In this document: piece by piece, positions 37,951 through 43,977 of the stretch
Numbering within the stretch: the stretch's first letter is position 1
Layout: every line of letters begins with the position of its first letter
Origin: Myxococcales bacterium 68-20
GTDB lineage: Bacteria; Myxococcota_A; Polyangia; Polyangiales; Polyangiaceae
Assembly: GCA_001899635.1 (NCBI GenBank)
Contig: MKVQ01000018.1
Location: 31,369 to 95,368 of the forward strand
DNA: 64,000 nucleotides
Reading direction: 5' to 3'
Notes under the pieces: model-generated
Seen by the model: the letters and a program-made list of their open reading frames with translations, nothing else
Told to the model about the DNA's origin: nothing
The model's database searches: none
Position numbers and translations under genes: made by a program

Positions 37951-39117
37951 CTACTTCATCACGAGCTTCATCACGACCGCGGCGAGGGTTGCGCCCACGA
38001 CGAGGAACGCGACGGCGACGCCGACGAGCAGGCCGAGCGACGGCTGCTTGCTCCGGCTCACCATTCGCGGCAACGGCGACGACTGCGGCGGCCTCGGCGC
38101 GTGGCCATGGGCAGCCTGCATCGCTCCTGCGCCCTGAGCCGGCTCGGCGTTCGCGTTCGGTATCGGCAGCGCGGCCGGCGCCGAGCCCATCATCGGACGC
38201 ATCGCCTGACCGTTCTGGTACGGGGGCACATGCGGGAGCCCGCTCAGGACCGCGCCGAGCGCGTGCGCGAACTCCGCGCCGGAGGCGTAGCGCTCCTCGG
38301 ATCTCTTCGCGAGCGCCTTCTCGAGCACGGTCCAGAGCAGCGGCGGGAACGTCCTGCCCGGGACACGCTCGTTGATCGGCTTCGGCTTCGCCGTCACGTG
38401 GAGCTGGATGTACTCCATCGGGTTCTTTGCCTCGAACGGCAGCTTCCCGGTGAGCACTTCGTAGAGGATGATCGCGAGCGAGTAGATGTCGCTCGCGGGC
38501 GTGAGCGCCTTGCCCTGCGCCTGCTCCGGGCTCATGAACTCCGGCGTGCCGAAGACCATGCCTTCTTGCGTGAGGATGACCGAGCCGGGGCGCATCTCGC
38601 GCTCGGTGACCTTCGCGAGGCCGAAGTCGAGGACCTTGGCGTAGTCCTTCATCCCGCCTTGCTGGCTGAGGAAGATGTTCTCCGGCTTGAGGTCGCGGTG
38701 GATGATCCCCGCGCGATGCGCCTCCTCGAGCGCGTGGCATGCCTGGATCAGGATCGGCACGCCGCGCTCGAGCGACATCGGACCTTCGGCACGAACCGTC
38801 TGGTTGAGGTTCTTGCCCTCGAGGTACTCCATGACGATGTACAGCGAGCCGTCCTCGAGCTCACCGTAAAGGTACACCTTCACCGTATTGGGATGGGTGA
38901 GGTGACTCATCGCGCGCGCCTCGCGGCGGAAGCGTGAGACGAGATCTTTCCGGTTCGCGAGCTTCGGATGGAGGATCTTGACCGCCACCATCCGGTTCAT
39001 CGCCGGCTGGAGCGCCTTGTAGACGGACCCCATCCCGCCCGATCCGATCTTCTGCAGGATCTGGAACTGTCCGTTCAGGATGTCCCTGCCAATGAACGGA
39101 TCCGGCGGACGCGCCAT
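37951..39117 (-). CDS. Transmembrane Ser/Thr protein kinase
   Basis: Hanks-type kinase of 388 aa. GSGGMG loop (residues 25-30), Lys47 in VAVKIL, HRDLKPEN (Asp142), VLDFGLAK (Asp164) and TPEFMSPEQ are intact. The kinase domain ends near 285; a Pro/Ala/His-rich linker leads to a membrane helix (LVGVAVAFLVVGATLAAVV, about 365-385) and a four-residue tail. There is no external sensor, so regulation is probably through partners. It diverges from pgeF across 60 bp, so the two promoters overlap. Confidence 0.94.
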   Translation of the reverse strand: MARPPDPFIGRDILNGQFQILQKIGSGGMGSVYKALQPAMNRMVAVKILHPKLANRKDLVSRFRREARAMSHLTHPNTVKVYLYGELEDGSLYIVMEYLEGKNLNQTVRAEGPMSLERGVPILIQACHALEEAHRAGIIHRDLKPENIFLSQQGGMKDYAKVLDFGLAKVTEREMRPGSVILTQEGMVFGTPEFMSPEQAQGKALTPASDIYSLAIILYEVLTGKLPFEAKNPMEYIQLHVTAKPKPINERVPGRTFPPLLWTVLEKALAKRSEERYASGAEFAHALGAVLSGLPHVPPYQNGQAMRPMMGSAPAALPIPNANAEPAQGAGAMQAAHGHAPRPPQSSPLPRMVSRSKQPSLGLLVGVAVAFLVVGATLAAVVMKLVMK

Positions 39118-39177
39118 CGCGAGTACCGTGATATCACGAAGGGCGGTCACAGGTCTTTTCGGCCGCGAGCTTCGACC

Positions 39178-39951
39178 ATGATGCTTCCGCTCCTCACGTC
39201 GAAGGCGCTCACCCAGGCTGGCTTCGCGCACGGGTTCACGACGCGGCTCGGCGGGGTGAGCCTGCCGCCGTTCGATTCCCTGGACTTCGCCGTTCTGCGC
39301 GATCCGGCGCTTCTCCGCGAGAATCAGGGCCGCCTTGCGAGCGCCGTGGGGTTCGACCCAGGCCTGTTTCATCAGGCGATGCAGGTCCACGGGGCGGCTC
39401 TCCTCGTCGCCGGAGGCGACCCGAAGGCTACGCTCGCGCTCGAGGCCGATGCGCTGGCCGCCGAGCCAGGCACCAATCATGCCGTCGCGGTGAGGGTCGC
39501 GGACTGCGTCCCGGTCTTGATCGCCGATCCGGGGAGCGGGCGTGTCGTTGCGGCTCATGCCGGATGGCGAGGGATCGAGGCTGGCGTCATTCGTGAGAGC
39601 GTCCGCCATCTCGCGTCGAACGGCGGCTCTGCCGAGGCAATGATCGCGGCGATCGGCCCGAGCATCGGTCCGTGCTGCTTCGAGGTCGGAGGGGACGTCG
39701 GCGAGCGCATCGCGAAGGCCTCGAGCGACGACGTGATCGTCCGGCGCGCGGGCGAGAAGGCGTTCGTCGATCTACGGCTGGCCGTTCGCGAGCAGCTCCG
39801 TGGGCTCGCGCTTGCCGACGACGCGATCGACGACGTGCCCGGGCGCGGCCCGGAGGGGTGCACCCGATGCGACCGCGAGCGCTTCTACTCGTACCGTCGT
39901 GATGGCGACGCGAGTGGACGCTTGCTCGGCGTGATCGTCGCTCGCGGGTGA
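39178..39951 (+). CDS. pgeF: Laccase-domain protein PgeF/YfiH
   Basis: Zinc-dependent purine nucleoside/peptidoglycan-editing family protein of 257 aa. The metal ligands His71 (MQVHG), Cys110 (VADCVP) and His127 (AAHAGWRG) are present, with GFTTRLGGVS at the N-terminus and IGPSIGPCCFEVG downstream. E. coli PgeF removes L-Ser-containing muropeptide errors, while homologues have adenosine deaminase/phosphorylase activity (family knowledge). Either ATG at 39178 or 39181 can serve as the start. Confidence 0.92.
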   Translation: MMLPLLTSKALTQAGFAHGFTTRLGGVSLPPFDSLDFAVLRDPALLRENQGRLASAVGFDPGLFHQAMQVHGAALLVAGGDPKATLALEADALAAEPGTNHAVAVRVADCVPVLIADPGSGRVVAAHAGWRGIEAGVIRESVRHLASNGGSAEAMIAAIGPSIGPCCFEVGGDVGERIAKASSDDVIVRRAGEKAFVDLRLAVREQLRGLALADDAIDDVPGRGPEGCTRCDRERFYSYRRDGDASGRLLGVIVARG

Positions 39952-39978: not shown

Positions 39979-40650
39979 TCAATCCGGCAGCGCGGCGGGA
40001 TCGGCGAGCAGCGCTCCCGTGAAGCGCGTTCGGAGGTAGAAGCCGCGCGGGACCGTCGCGATCGCCTCACCCTCGGAGCCCCACGCGAGCGTGCGCACGC
40101 TCCCATCGCGCGCCTTGGGCCTCACCTGGAGCCAGCGACCGCGATGCGCCGTCAGCTCTTCGATGCGCCCTACGCCGATCAGGCCGACGACGTCGTCGAA
40201 GTCCGCGCGCAGGATGTCGTCCTGCTCGCTCGTCGGGCTCCAGAGCACCGGCGCGCCGACGACACGCTCCTGCCAGGCGATCTTGTGAGCGCCGACGAGC
40301 GGGACGAAGAGCACGCGTGCGAGCTTCGCGCGGACCCAGGATGTCTCCCATTCCTGGAGCTCGGCGTCCGCGAGCGAGAGCGTGCAGACGTAGGTCGACT
40401 CGAGCGGCGTACCCTCTGCGGTCACCGGGATCGTCTTCAGCTCCACCCCGAGGTCGGGGAAGTCGAGCACCTGCGACGAGCCTCCCGTGGCCCCGAGCGC
40501 GCGCTCGAGCGTCTCGCCGGCGGAGCCCTTCGTCCGCACGGGATCCGCGCTCGCCGCGAGCCCGAGGTCGCGGAGCACCGCGCCGACGGCAGAGCCCGTG
40601 AGAGCGCGCGCGCGTTCGAGGAGCTCGTCGATCGAGGCAGGCGGCATCAT
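39979..40650 (-). CDS. mutH: DNA mismatch repair endonuclease MutH
   Basis: Restriction-endonuclease-fold nickase of 223 aa. It aligns along its length to E. coli MutH (229 aa): the active-site residues Glu49, Asp63, Glu70 and Lys72 lie in TLERALGATG and DFPDLGVELKTIPV, and further matches include STYVCTLSLAD, WETSWVRAKLARVLFVPL, VGAPVLWSP and the C-terminal LPRGFYLRTRFTGALL. MutH nicks the unmethylated strand at hemimethylated GATC when activated by MutS/MutL. MutH is generally restricted to Dam-containing gammaproteobacteria, so presence here is notable. The 74-bp gap separates it from a divergent methyltransferase-like gene. Confidence 0.95.
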   Translation of the reverse strand: MMPPASIDELLERARALTGSAVGAVLRDLGLAASADPVRTKGSAGETLERALGATGGSSQVLDFPDLGVELKTIPVTAEGTPLESTYVCTLSLADAELQEWETSWVRAKLARVLFVPLVGAHKIAWQERVVGAPVLWSPTSEQDDILRADFDDVVGLIGVGRIEELTAHRGRWLQVRPKARDGSVRTLAWGSEGEAIATVPRGFYLRTRFTGALLADPAALPD

Positions 40651-40724
40651 CGTCGCGCTCGATTGCCAGGGCCGGCCGCGCGCGGCAAGCCCTGCGCGTG
40701 GGCCGACTCCCGTACAATGCGCCG

Positions 40725-41435
40725 ATGCCTGGTCCCGATCCGCTGACGAACGACGTGCCTGGATGCGAGCCCGATCCCGTGGCGAGGGGAGGGCGCCGCG
40801 TGGTCGTCCAGGCCGAGGCGCTGGCGTGGATGGACGCGAACGCGCCCGACCCTGCGGCGAGCGTGATCACCTCGCTGCCCGACCTCAGCGAGCTCGCGCT
40901 CGACCTCGACGGATGGCGCGCGTGGTTCATCGCCGCGGCTCGCCGCGTGATCCGCTGGGTGCCGCCGAGCGGCGTCGCGATCTTCTACCAGAGCGACATC
41001 CGCCATGGCGGCGTGTGGATCGACAAGGGCTACCTCGTGATGCGCGCAGCGGAGGAGGAGCGCGCGATCGTGCTCTGGCACAAGATCGTCTGCCGCCGCC
41101 CGCCGGGGACGATCGCGTTCGGCCGCCCGAGCTACTCGCACATGATCTGCGTGACGCGCACGCCGCGTGCGCCGATGCGGAAGCCCGGACCCGACGTCCT
41201 CCCCGACGCCGGCTTCGCGCCGTGGAGCCGCGCGATGGGCGTCGCTGCGTGCGAGGTTGCGTGTCGCTTCCTCCTCGAGGAGACAAGGGCCCGCGTGGTG
41301 GTCGATCCGTTCTGCGGTCGCGGGACGGTGCTCGCCGTCGCCAACGAGATGGGGCTCGACGCGCTCGGTGTCGACATCGGCACGAAGCGTTGTCGGGCCG
41401 CCCGTTCGCTGACGCTCGACCGTCGGTCCGAGTGA
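40725..41435 (+). CDS. Predicted SAM-dependent DNA methyltransferase
   Basis: Protein of 236 aa. The motif order is permuted: catalytic-type motif ITSLPDLSE (residues 48-56) comes first, and the SAM-binding motif VVVDPFCGRGTVLAV (191-205) with VDIGTKRC after it comes near the C-terminus, as in beta-class amino-methyltransferases. The catalytic tetrapeptide is SLPD rather than the usual DPPY/SPPY. The middle (FYQSDIRHGG, HKIVCRRPPGTIAFGRPSYSHM) is typical of this uncharacterised family. DNA is the most likely target, but RNA cannot be excluded. It diverges from mutH. Confidence 0.75.
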   Translation: MPGPDPLTNDVPGCEPDPVARGGRRVVVQAEALAWMDANAPDPAASVITSLPDLSELALDLDGWRAWFIAAARRVIRWVPPSGVAIFYQSDIRHGGVWIDKGYLVMRAAEEERAIVLWHKIVCRRPPGTIAFGRPSYSHMICVTRTPRAPMRKPGPDVLPDAGFAPWSRAMGVAACEVACRFLLEETRARVVVDPFCGRGTVLAVANEMGLDALGVDIGTKRCRAARSLTLDRRSE

Positions 41436-41456
41436 CCGGCCGAGCCGTGGTCACTC
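41430..41456. repeat. Inverted repeat spanning two convergent stop codons
   Basis: Perfect 8-bp arms GAGTGACC (41430-41437) and GGTCACTC (41449-41456). The stops of the methyltransferase and the convergent lipoprotein are in the arms. No T-run follows, so it is at best a weak bidirectional terminator. Confidence 0.4.
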
Positions 41457-42470
41457 CTTCGCCGGATGCACCTCGCGCCATCGCGCTGCATACCTCGCGG
41501 CGAAGGCATCGAGCGGCTCCGCGCGCGCGCCTCGCCATTCCTTTGCGAGCCACTCGAGCATCGAGAGCTCGACCGCCTCGGCCGAGCGTCGATGGACGGA
41601 ACGGTGTTTCGGCTCCCACCCCGTGACGATCGTCGCGGCGGAGTGGATGATCAGGAGCGACCACGCTCGCTCTCCGTCGTGTGGGCCGAGCTCGCGAACG
41701 AGCGTGTCGTGGAGGGGACCGGCGAGCGCCGCGTCCTCGCCCTGCACCGCGGAGAGCGCGTGCACGAGCAAGCAGTCGAGGATGCGCGCCTGGTCGACGC
41801 CCTCGTCCGGACCGCGACCGGTGGCCCGATCGCGGAAGAAGCAGCGTCCTCGCGTCGAGAGGGCGACGGGAGCGAGCGCCGCGCGACCGACGGGCGGCGC
41901 CTCCGAGACGACGCTGATCGGTACCGGGTGATCGGGCCACGTGAGGCCGAGGTCGCTCGCTGCGCGGGTGAAGATCGCGTCGGCGGCGGGCCCGATCGCG
42001 CCGAGGACGGCGCGGCTGGCCTCGAGCCCGACCCAGGCGGCGGATGCTCGGTCCGCCCACGTCCGGGCCACGAAATGCGGCAGGGCTCGATCGTACGCGT
42101 GTCCGAAGCCCTCGGAGGCCACGGCTGTGCTCGAGCAGTGGTCGTCCGCGCAGGCCGAGAGGGCGCGTGCCGTTCGCTCGAGGAGCAGGTCGTCGTCGTC
42201 GTCCCGGAGCGAGCGGGCGTAGGCCAGTCGGGCAGTCTCGAGCGCCGGATCCACCTCCGCGCCGGTGCGAGCGGCGGTCGCGAGCCAGGCGTGCAGCTCG
42301 ACGTAGGCGGTCACCTGGAGCGAAATGCGGCCCTCCCTGACCATGAGGGCGCGCGCCGGAGGGCCCGGAGGCGGAGGGAGCGGCGGGCGCTGTGCGCACG
42401 ACGCAGCGCAGAAAGCGGCCACTGCGAGCGTCAGGAGGGTTGTCGTGCTTGCGCGAATGCCGTGCCGCAT
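41451..42470 (-). CDS. Lipoprotein, unknown
   Basis: Lipoprotein of 339 aa with lipobox CAASC (Cys25) and a Pro-rich linker (QRPPLPPPPGPP). The mature region is helical, with a run of Asp (DDDDD) near residue 90, paired cysteines (SACADDHC) and GRCFFRDRATGRG. No catalytic motif recognised. Its ATG and that of the cbs gene are only 16 bp apart and divergent, so promoters must lie inside the neighbouring coding regions or overlap. Confidence 0.78.
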   Translation of the reverse strand: MRHGIRASTTTLLTLAVAAFCAASCAQRPPLPPPPGPPARALMVREGRISLQVTAYVELHAWLATAARTGAEVDPALETARLAYARSLRDDDDDLLLERTARALSACADDHCSSTAVASEGFGHAYDRALPHFVARTWADRASAAWVGLEASRAVLGAIGPAADAIFTRAASDLGLTWPDHPVPISVVSEAPPVGRAALAPVALSTRGRCFFRDRATGRGPDEGVDQARILDCLLVHALSAVQGEDAALAGPLHDTLVRELGPHDGERAWSLLIIHSAATIVTGWEPKHRSVHRRSAEAVELSMLEWLAKEWRGARAEPLDAFAARYAARWREVHPAKE

Positions 42471-42486
42471 CGTATGCCCGTCTCCC

Positions 42487-43977
42487 ATGATGCAAGGCGC
42501 TCTCGAAGACATCACCAAGGCCGTGGGCAACACGCCGATCGTTCGACTCAACAAGGTGACGAAGGGACTTCCGCCCGGCATCGAAATTTACGTCAAGTGC
42601 GAGTACCTGAACCCCGGAGGCAGCCACAAGGACCGGCTCGCCTGGAACCTCCTCCGTAGGGCCGAGGAAGCGGGCCTCAAGCCCGGCGGCACGATCGTCG
42701 AGGCCACCAGCGGCAACACCGGCGCCTCGCTCGCGCTCCTGGCCACCATCCGTGGCTACAAGTGCATCTTCGTGATGCCCGACAAGATGAGCCAGGAGAA
42801 GGTCGCGAACCTCCGCGCGTTCGGCGCGAAGGTCGTGCTGTGCCCCACGGCCGTCGATGCGGACGACCCGCGCAGCTACTACAAGGTCTCGCGTCGCATC
42901 GCCGACGAGACGCCGAACTCGTTCTACGCGAACCAGTACCACAACCCCGCCAACCCCGAGGCGCACTACCTCTGGACGGGACCGGAGATCTGGAAGCAGA
43001 CGAAGGGCGACTTCGACGCGTTCGTCGCGGGCCTCGGCACCGGCGGCACCGTCAGCGGCACGGGCAAGTACCTGAAGGAGAAGAAGCCGGAGATCACGAT
43101 CGTCGGCGTCGATCCGGTCGGCTCGCTCTATTACGACTTCGTCAAGACGGGCCGGGTCACGAAGCCGTTCTCGTACAAGGTCGAGGGCATCGGCGAGGAC
43201 TTCTTCCCGTCGACGATGAACCTCAAGATCCTCGACGACATCATCCGCGTCGACGACAAGGAGTGCTTCCTCATGACCCGCGCGATGACGCGCGAAGAGG
43301 GCCTCTTCGTCGGCGGCTCCGGCGGCGCGGCCGTCGCGGGCGCGATCAAGTGGGCGAAGACCTTCGGTCCGCGCATGCTCGCGGCGAAGAAGGGCAAGGG
43401 CCCGATCAAGATCCTCGTCTTCCTCTGCGACGGCGGAACGAAGTACGTGTCGAAGATCTTCAACGACGAGTGGATGCGCGAGAACGGCTTCCTCGACGAG
43501 GAGCCGGGCATCGGGACCGTCGCGGACATCCTCCACCTCCGCAACAAGCGCAAGATCGTCACCACGACCTCGAGCGCGAAGGTGAAGGACGTCATCTCGA
43601 CGCTGAAGGAGCTCGGCATCAGTCAGCTCCCCGTCGTCGACAAGGGCAAGCTGAAGGGCATCATCAGCGAGGTCGATCTCCTCCGCCACATGGTCTCGGG
43701 ACCGAAGACGGCGAATGCGTCGATCGCGTCGCTCCTCGAGAGCGACTACGCCACCGTGACGCCCGACACGAAGATCGAGCTGCTCCAGGGCGTGCTCGCG
43801 GACGCGCGTGCGGCGATCGTCACCGAGCGCGACTCCGTCGTCGGCATCGTCACGAAGATCGACCTCATCGAATACCTCGCGAAGAAGAGCGCCGAGGTGC
43901 CGGTCGCGAAGGGCAAGGCGCCGAAGAAGAAGGTGGCCGTCAAGAAGGCCAACGGCGCGCGCGAGCGCCGCGCCTAG
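42487..43977 (+). CDS. Cystathionine beta-synthase with CBS domain pair
   Basis: PLP enzyme of 496 aa. The fold II catalytic domain (residues 1-330) has the PLP lysine in GGSHKDR (Lys48), the phosphate/substrate loop TSGNTGAS, and GLGTGGTVSGTGKYL. From about residue 360 come two CBS domains (DVISTLKELGISQLPVVD and later TPDTKIELLQGVLADA), known to bind adenosyl ligands such as SAM. A Lys/Ala-rich tail of about 30 residues follows. Reaction: serine plus homocysteine to cystathionine, or O-acetylserine-type chemistry. An intrinsic terminator follows 25 bp downstream. The start at 42487 is one of two adjacent ATGs. Confidence 0.92.
   Translation: MMQGALEDITKAVGNTPIVRLNKVTKGLPPGIEIYVKCEYLNPGGSHKDRLAWNLLRRAEEAGLKPGGTIVEATSGNTGASLALLATIRGYKCIFVMPDKMSQEKVANLRAFGAKVVLCPTAVDADDPRSYYKVSRRIADETPNSFYANQYHNPANPEAHYLWTGPEIWKQTKGDFDAFVAGLGTGGTVSGTGKYLKEKKPEITIVGVDPVGSLYYDFVKTGRVTKPFSYKVEGIGEDFFPSTMNLKILDDIIRVDDKECFLMTRAMTREEGLFVGGSGGAAVAGAIKWAKTFGPRMLAAKKGKGPIKILVFLCDGGTKYVSKIFNDEWMRENGFLDEEPGIGTVADILHLRNKRKIVTTTSSAKVKDVISTLKELGISQLPVVDKGKLKGIISEVDLLRHMVSGPKTANASIASLLESDYATVTPDTKIELLQGVLADARAAIVTERDSVVGIVTKIDLIEYLAKKSAEVPVAKGKAPKKKVAVKKANGARERRA

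Follow-up and report, generated by a model that had tools for sequence, protein, structure and literature searches.

The closest described counterpart of the locus presented here is the methyl-directed mismatch repair system of Escherichia coli, with the proteins MutH, Dam, MutS and MutL. We take E56, D70, E77 and K79 of E. coli MutH to be its catalytic residues, and R184, P185, K186 and Y212 to be the residues that read the GATC sequence and sense its methylation. MutH and Sau3AI have a common fold. The catalytic motif IV of DNA amino-methyltransferases has the consensus (D/N/S)PP(Y/F/W). One review describes methyl-directed repair as confined to a few gammaproteobacteria (PMC8744996), and another describes the MutL endonuclease motif as missing only in some gammaproteobacteria with MutH (PMC3848065). 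In searches of an open-access library, no paper on MutH in myxobacteria, Sorangium, Myxococcus, Myxococcota or Deltaproteobacteria was recognised by its title or the beginning of its abstract; many of the hits probably reflect the author name Muth, and in one paper MutH and Deltaproteobacteria were mentioned without connection to each other.

The locus is part of a 64-kb window, which is the whole stretch of DNA that was analysed, from the genome of a Labilithrix-like myxobacterium. As in E. coli, MutH, Dam, MutS and MutL are all encoded in this genome, and the catalytic, GATC-reading and methyl-sensing residues of MutH are identical. The system differs from that of E. coli in its host and in its MutL, which keeps the motif DQHA(X)2E that is lost in two gammaproteobacterial controls. 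Because the endonuclease motif of MutL is present, the putative system is better described as a variant of Dam-directed repair than as the E. coli type proper. It is likely that the MutH of the window is directed by Dam and GATC and works with MutS and MutL, and that the methyltransferase with an SLPD motif encoded beside it is an incidental neighbour with its own target.

The mutH gene and its surroundings

Judged by its sequence, the minus-strand gene encodes a genuine MutH (Table 1). The protein matches the equivalog model NF003458 over its full length with 252.6 bits (NCBIfam cut-off 243); it reaches 217.1 bits with the second NCBIfam model, TIGR02248, which is under the cut-off of 229.9, and 91.9 bits with Pfam MutH. 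Residues 2–216 align without gaps to the MutH chains 1azo/2azo (E 3e-54). Glu49, Asp63, Glu70 and Lys72 are positioned opposite E. coli E56, D70, E77 and K79 (offset +7), and R177, P178, K179 and Y205 opposite R184, P185, K186 and Y212. The original prediction of a full-length MutH with these four acidic and lysine residues, encoded outside gammaproteobacteria, is thus borne out for this myxobacterium.

Table 1. Features of the mutH locus in window coordinates
Feature	Position	Strand	Evidence
Cu-oxidase_4 / laccase-domain protein	38968..39951	+	Pfam, 183.5 bits; start as in ORF listing
mutH, DNA mismatch repair endonuclease MutH, 223 aa	39979..40650	-	NF003458 equivalog, ungapped alignment to 1azo/2azo, invariant key residues
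Gap between divergent start codons, 74 bp	40651..40724	.	Read directly
Permuted (beta-order) amino-methyltransferase, 236 aa, SLPD at motif IV position	40725..41435	+	ATG at 40725, stop ends at 41435; Pfam motif I, AlphaFold model, structure matches
Hypothetical protein	41451..42581	-	No Pfam/NCBIfam family above cut-off

Ten positions (E. coli K48, E56, D70, E77, K79, K116, R184, P185, K186 and Y212) are identical in 46/46 myxobacterial rows, which are the window protein, 32 proteins from the phylum sample and 13 named loci (L194 is the same as G051, L215 as G111 and, apparently, L190 as G349), with most of the 115 Myxococcota genomes that have MutH outside the alignment. The same positions are identical in 66/66 other rows, which were drawn from the best 80 of 577 relatives and are labelled gammaproteobacterial by their record titles, one of them carrying an alphaproteobacterial name, Martelella alba (L224). 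The tree places the Martelella protein amid enterobacteria.

Among the best 80 of 577 relatives, the closest named MutH is that of the Labilithrix MAG ACE_MYX5 with 87% identity. Further MAGs of Labilithrix, Polyangiaceae and Myxococcales have identities of 71–73%, two strains of Sorangium cellulosum 59%, and Minicystis rosea 58%; Dam and a MutL with the endonuclease site are encoded in the Labilithrix, Sorangium and Minicystis genomes alike. In the MutH tree, the window protein clusters with five rows of Labilithrix/Polyangiaceae type (SH-aLRT 100); the description of the host as a Labilithrix-like myxobacterium is based on these relatives. A quick MutH tree places the 66 gammaproteobacterial-labelled rows on one side of a branch (SH-aLRT 90) amid myxobacterial rows. 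This tree has a very long branch to its outgroup and leaves 52 of its 114 inner branches open, and the 66 rows were taken from the best 80 of 577 relatives; given these properties, no claim is drawn about the direction of MutH transfer.

The window genome has a size of 11.9 Mb in 52 contigs, with 98.4% completeness and 4.2% contamination. The Cu-oxidase_4 gene adjoins mutH also in L182, L183 and L185, and the hypothetical gene has the same position in L182, L183, L184 (partial) and L171. Since the neighbour genes of mutH are common to Labilithrix/Polyangiaceae relatives, arrival of the gene by contamination is unlikely. MutH and the methyltransferase each have full-length relatives in other genomes, indicating that neither is a chance reading frame, and their divergent arrangement across 74 bp, as well as the SLPD motif, were confirmed on the sequence.

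The SLPD methyltransferase

The methyltransferase has the SLPD motif at residue 50 and the sequence DPFCGRGT at residue 194. Pfam N6_N4_Mtase covers only its C-terminal motif I (residues 191–226, 32.9 bits, cut-off 26.7). The AlphaFold (AF2) model of the protein has a mean pLDDT of 87.4, and its VIA structure matches are TTHA0409, CcrM, MboIIA and M.BceJIV, with Z from 19.6 to 20.2 and identity of 12–17%. According to the model, the protein has the fold and permuted motif order of a beta-class amino-methyltransferase, which it has in common with TTHA0409, CcrM and MboIIA. It differs from these three enzymes, besides the low identity, in the SLPD motif and in a short target-recognition region, which leaves little room for target recognition. 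Of the earlier description as a permuted DNA methyltransferase, the permuted methyltransferase is supported by the model (Z about 20), and DNA is a putative substrate. All 25 aligned relatives have TS(L/M)PD at the motif IV position and (D/N/S)PP(Y/F/W) is absent; SLPD thus represents a motif IV without its aromatic residue. The protein is not a Dam of the D12 class with a DPPY motif, as indicated by SLPD, the permuted motif order, and the lack of a match to the D12-class Dam family TIGR00571 among NCBIfam models up to E 1.

Relatives of the SLPD methyltransferase at E 3.4e-42 or better are encoded in at least 44 of 377 phylum genomes, in a survey that scored up to seven first-look candidates per genome. 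The first match past these has E 8.7e-7, and later ones are partial, mostly with little beyond motif I. No relative was found in the plasmid collection at E 1e-5, and one scan of viral contigs yielded 63 pattern matches with no relative among them. The search of phages identified a relative in a single virus (two accessions), Haloarcula tailed virus HCTV-2, whose AdoMet-methyltransferase (34%) is the sole annotated relative found. Clustering of open reading frames over the methyltransferase loci pointed to a common neighbour in 8 loci. Two of three genomes from one genus (L060 and L061) contain genes for Ku and an Smr-domain protein after the methyltransferase gene. A conserved partner was rejected because tblastn places the Ku and Smr genes only at these two loci and not at L181, the third genome of the genus. 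The other clustered neighbours are probably antisense frames of the methyltransferase gene itself.

The proximity of the two genes raises the possibility that they form a functional pair, in which the SLPD methyltransferase would set a second mark that is read by MutH in a non-Dam methyl-directed repair. The starts of the genes diverge across 74 bp, the methyltransferase has the fold of beta-class DNA methyltransferases, and the arrangement is kept in Labilithrix ACE_MYX5 (L182), which has the closest SLPD methyltransferase seen (77%) together with the 87% identical MutH, and in G347, with a further reading frame between the two genes. MutH is found in 23 of the at least 44 genomes with the methyltransferase, more often than expected (p 0.0015, a value that ignores kinship). 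However, the other 21 have no MutH, and they include the genomes of the three closest methyltransferases of the 377-genome sample (69–71%). Conversely, the two Sorangium genomes and Minicystis contain MutH, and differ from the window genome in that no SLPD methyltransferase was found in them. Among the loci examined, many of which span only 1.5 kb either side, tblastn found both genes in five loci representing three genomes, and they are adjacent only in the window genome, ACE_MYX5 and G347. Four near relatives (L183–L186) have no SLPD methyltransferase beside mutH. The gene is elsewhere in their genomes, and in that of L185 it is apparently broken (L343, L344; G380:C88:7975-8606), although MutH is whole. 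Furthermore, the window genome encodes Dam, its MutH keeps the GATC-reading residues, and SLPD is devoid of the motif IV aromatic residue. A functional pair is therefore very improbable. The predicted side-by-side conservation largely fails: a conserved linkage was rejected on the 377-genome tables and on tblastn over the loci. With dam elsewhere in the genome, the SLPD methyltransferase next to mutH is probably a chance neighbour.

Dam and GATC in the window genome and in Myxococcota

The Dam-family methyltransferase of the window genome is encoded on another contig (TIGR00571, 274.8 bits, cut-off 114.85). Over its whole length it can be aligned with DpnM (2dpm, 235 bits), the nearest among solved structures, and with Dam chains (149 bits), and it keeps DPPY; the GATC specificity of Dam-family proteins is assigned by homology. 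The same genome encodes MutS (833.8 bits) and MutL (512.7 bits), so that dam, mutS and mutL, the search for which had been proposed together with the original prediction, are all present. The window contains 596 GATC sites, with an observed/expected ratio of 1.02 (Markov expectation), and the sequence is not avoided. CTAG is strongly avoided in the window, with 13 sites seen and 43 expected.

In the proposed mechanism, a mismatch would lead MutS and MutL to recruit MutH, which would nick the still-unmethylated strand at a hemimethylated GATC. The GATC mark would be laid down by the Dam-family methyltransferase, and the SLPD methyltransferase, which would sit beside mutH by chance in a small lineage and have a separate target, would be irrelevant to MutH. 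We infer from the gene content that MutH, Dam, MutS and MutL act together in repair and that Dam methylates GATC in vivo. The presence of Dam, together with the retained GATC-reading residues of MutH and its unconserved linkage to the SLPD methyltransferase, speaks against the non-Dam mismatch-repair pair that had been suggested.

The similarity of Dam to DpnM is also a likeness to restriction-modification systems of the DpnII and LlaDCHI type. In contrast to these systems, the window genome has no restriction gene among the five scanned frames flanking dam, which encode a FUR regulator, a 5-FTHF cyclo-ligase, a thioredoxin, a DUF4340 protein and one protein without a family, and no DpnA-like methyltransferase was found in the genome at E 1e-45. 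The alternative that mutH belongs to a restriction-modification system, as a nuclease of the MutH/Sau3AI fold shielded by the neighbouring methyltransferase, draws on the distant sequence similarity of the window MutH to Sau3AI (NF040973, 25.7 bits) and on a pair in the distant genome G075 (see below), which indicates that such arrangements may exist. Nevertheless, the window protein belongs to the MutH equivalog family and scores far under the Sau3AI model cut-off of 300, GATC is not avoided in the window, the surroundings of mutH are common to its relatives, and PADLOC gives the nuclease only a weak match (15.7 bits, E 0.0012). The restriction-like pair, which had also been put forward, is thus very improbable as well, and repair directed by Dam remains the preferred reading.

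The phylum sample places this reading in a broader context. With NF003458, 128 of the 377 genomes have a match at E 0.001 or better, which exceeds the cut-off in 84 of them, and E. coli is the only one of 14 control genomes to match. At E<1e-30, MutH is present in 115 of 377 genomes from 21 families, with a patchy distribution within families; the 13 matches excluded by this threshold are ten of the divergent family f35, G075, G202 and the fragment G337. Dam is encoded in 96 of the 115 genomes, 12 more have a DpnA-like methyltransferase alone, and seven have neither; three of these seven (G019, G024 and G136) reach a completeness of 90% or more. In total, 108/115 genomes with MutH encode a methyltransferase that is Dam-family or DpnA-like and, by homology, of GATC type. 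Dam is also present in 9/9 named myxobacterial MutH genomes examined, with four further named myxobacterial loci outside the count. For these numbers, Dam was counted in 216 of 226 matches (214 over the family cut-off), after ten weaker than about E 1e-25 were dropped, including G261 (1.7e-23, perhaps a partial Dam) and G331 (4.3e-17), and the DpnA-like methyltransferase was counted at E<1e-90 in 42 of 45 matches. Fisher p values for co-occurrence ignore kinship. The co-occurrence of MutH and Dam is not specific, since 120 genomes have Dam and no MutH at E<1e-30; a weaker MutH-like match is present in 12 of the 120. A Dam-family or DpnA-like methyltransferase is encoded in 145 genomes that contain no MutH at E<1e-30. 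Together with the 108 genomes, this fits a MutH that depends on the mark and a mark that also serves other purposes.

The DpnA-like beta-class methyltransferase is encoded in 12 of the 19 MutH genomes without Dam, namely in family f25, G331 and G335 (loci L268 and L270–L277). It is 56% identical to the second methyltransferase of the Lactococcus plasmid pSRQ700, a further likeness to systems of the DpnII and LlaDCHI type. The pSRQ700 gene is positioned between genes for a DNA adenine methylase and a type II restriction endonuclease, and we take the plasmid to be the carrier of LlaDCHI. One paper assigns LlaDCHI to the GATC systems (PMC4190342). By sequence similarity, the DpnA-like methyltransferase is likely a substitute for Dam in these lineages.

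Divergent MutH-like proteins are encoded in family f35 (L300–L304, L319–L322), with E from 5e-18 to 2e-11 against NF003458, in genomes with Dam. In the five aligned rows, the catalytic E, D and E-K are retained, as is a QPRP(K/R)G motif. All four f35 genomes examined have lost the MutL endonuclease site, and the MutH-like gene is located about 10 kb from mutL in G057 and G212. In G075, a MutH-like stretch lies about 0.14 kb from a gene for a DpnA-like methyltransferase (L299, G075:C62:11370-12727), and the MutL endonuclease site is kept there. It is possible that this pair is a MutH-fold restriction system.

The MutL endonuclease site and the nicking step

The MutL of the window genome keeps the endonuclease motif (DQHAAAERVTFD, plus CPHGRP). 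The last residue of the longer motif DQHA(X)2E(X)4E is Asp; this position varies also in relatives without MutH, and the Asp is therefore no clear sign of decay. MutL sequences were aligned from 78 of 80 sampled genomes (G175 and G335, cut by contig ends, were left out), 77 of which are in the tree. The DQHA(X)2E site, whose retention was judged by three residues of the first motif alone (in G117, counted as retaining it, the second motif is degenerate), is lost in 20 of the 78: in 11/37 genomes with MutH, 4/5 with a divergent MutH-like gene, and 5/36 without MutH. Losses in genomes with MutH are distributed among families f2, f3, f22, f26, f29, f31, f38, f45, f51 and f54, and those in genomes without MutH comprise 5/5 in family f13 and 0/31 outside it. 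The site is kept in 26/37 genomes with MutH, including all seven in the sample from the family of the window genome, and in 9/9 named myxobacterial MutH genomes, Sorangium and Minicystis among them, compared with 0/2 gammaproteobacterial controls.

In family f13 (L305–L314), in which the MutL site is lost in 5/5 genomes examined, Dam was not found and a DpnA-like methyltransferase is present. A hidden MutH was sought in this family: the divergent-MutH profile A5 found none in 10/10 genomes, and there was none in the loci around mutL and the DpnA gene.

On the tree of MutL N-terminal parts, the state of the site changes 11 times, and at least six of the changes are forced by starred branches. 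A tree-based paired test of whether the MutL site is lost together with the presence of MutH yielded six pairs, three in the same, expected direction, none in the opposite direction and three with no difference (p 0.25, not significant). With its intact MutL site, the window genome may be able to start repair without MutH, and the losses of the site that speak for MutH come from families other than its own. It is conceivable, if rather unlikely, that most of the nicking is done by MutL, with MutH in an auxiliary role or in the course of being gained or lost, a reading that overlaps with Dam-directed repair and differs from it in the weight given to MutH. This would agree with the retention of the MutL site in most genomes with MutH, including the named myxobacteria, unlike the gammaproteobacterial controls, and with the patchiness of MutH within families. 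However, the catalytic and recognition residues of MutH are invariant in the rows aligned, and the repeated changes of state on the tree include losses of the MutL site in several families with MutH, suggesting that nicking can be performed by MutH in those families. For Dam-directed repair by MutH, MutS and MutL, it is possible that both MutH and MutL nick, or that one of them is auxiliary. The retention of the MutL site in 26 of 37 genomes makes two-nuclease repair by MutH and MutL a testable possibility.

The phylum counts go against both statements of the reviews as general rules (PMC8744996, PMC3848065). The combination of MutH with a methyltransferase of the Dam family or DpnA-like type is common across Myxococcota, the MutL site has been lost outside gammaproteobacteria too, and many genomes of the phylum contain MutH as well as an intact MutL site. 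As a tentative proposal, mismatch repair in Myxococcota could employ two nicking enzymes in one cell, MutH directed by Dam and MutL with an active endonuclease, and could represent the intermediate that gave rise to E. coli-type repair; MutH would then be older and more varied here than in Gammaproteobacteria, and a non-homologous DpnA-like GATC methyltransferase would have replaced Dam in some lineages (f25, G331 and G335). The genomes of Sorangium cellulosum and Minicystis rosea, complete by their titles, encode MutH, Dam and a MutL with the endonuclease site. Given the counts in Myxococcota, the takeover of MutL-nuclease repair by MutH and Dam may be tested in organisms such as these two species.
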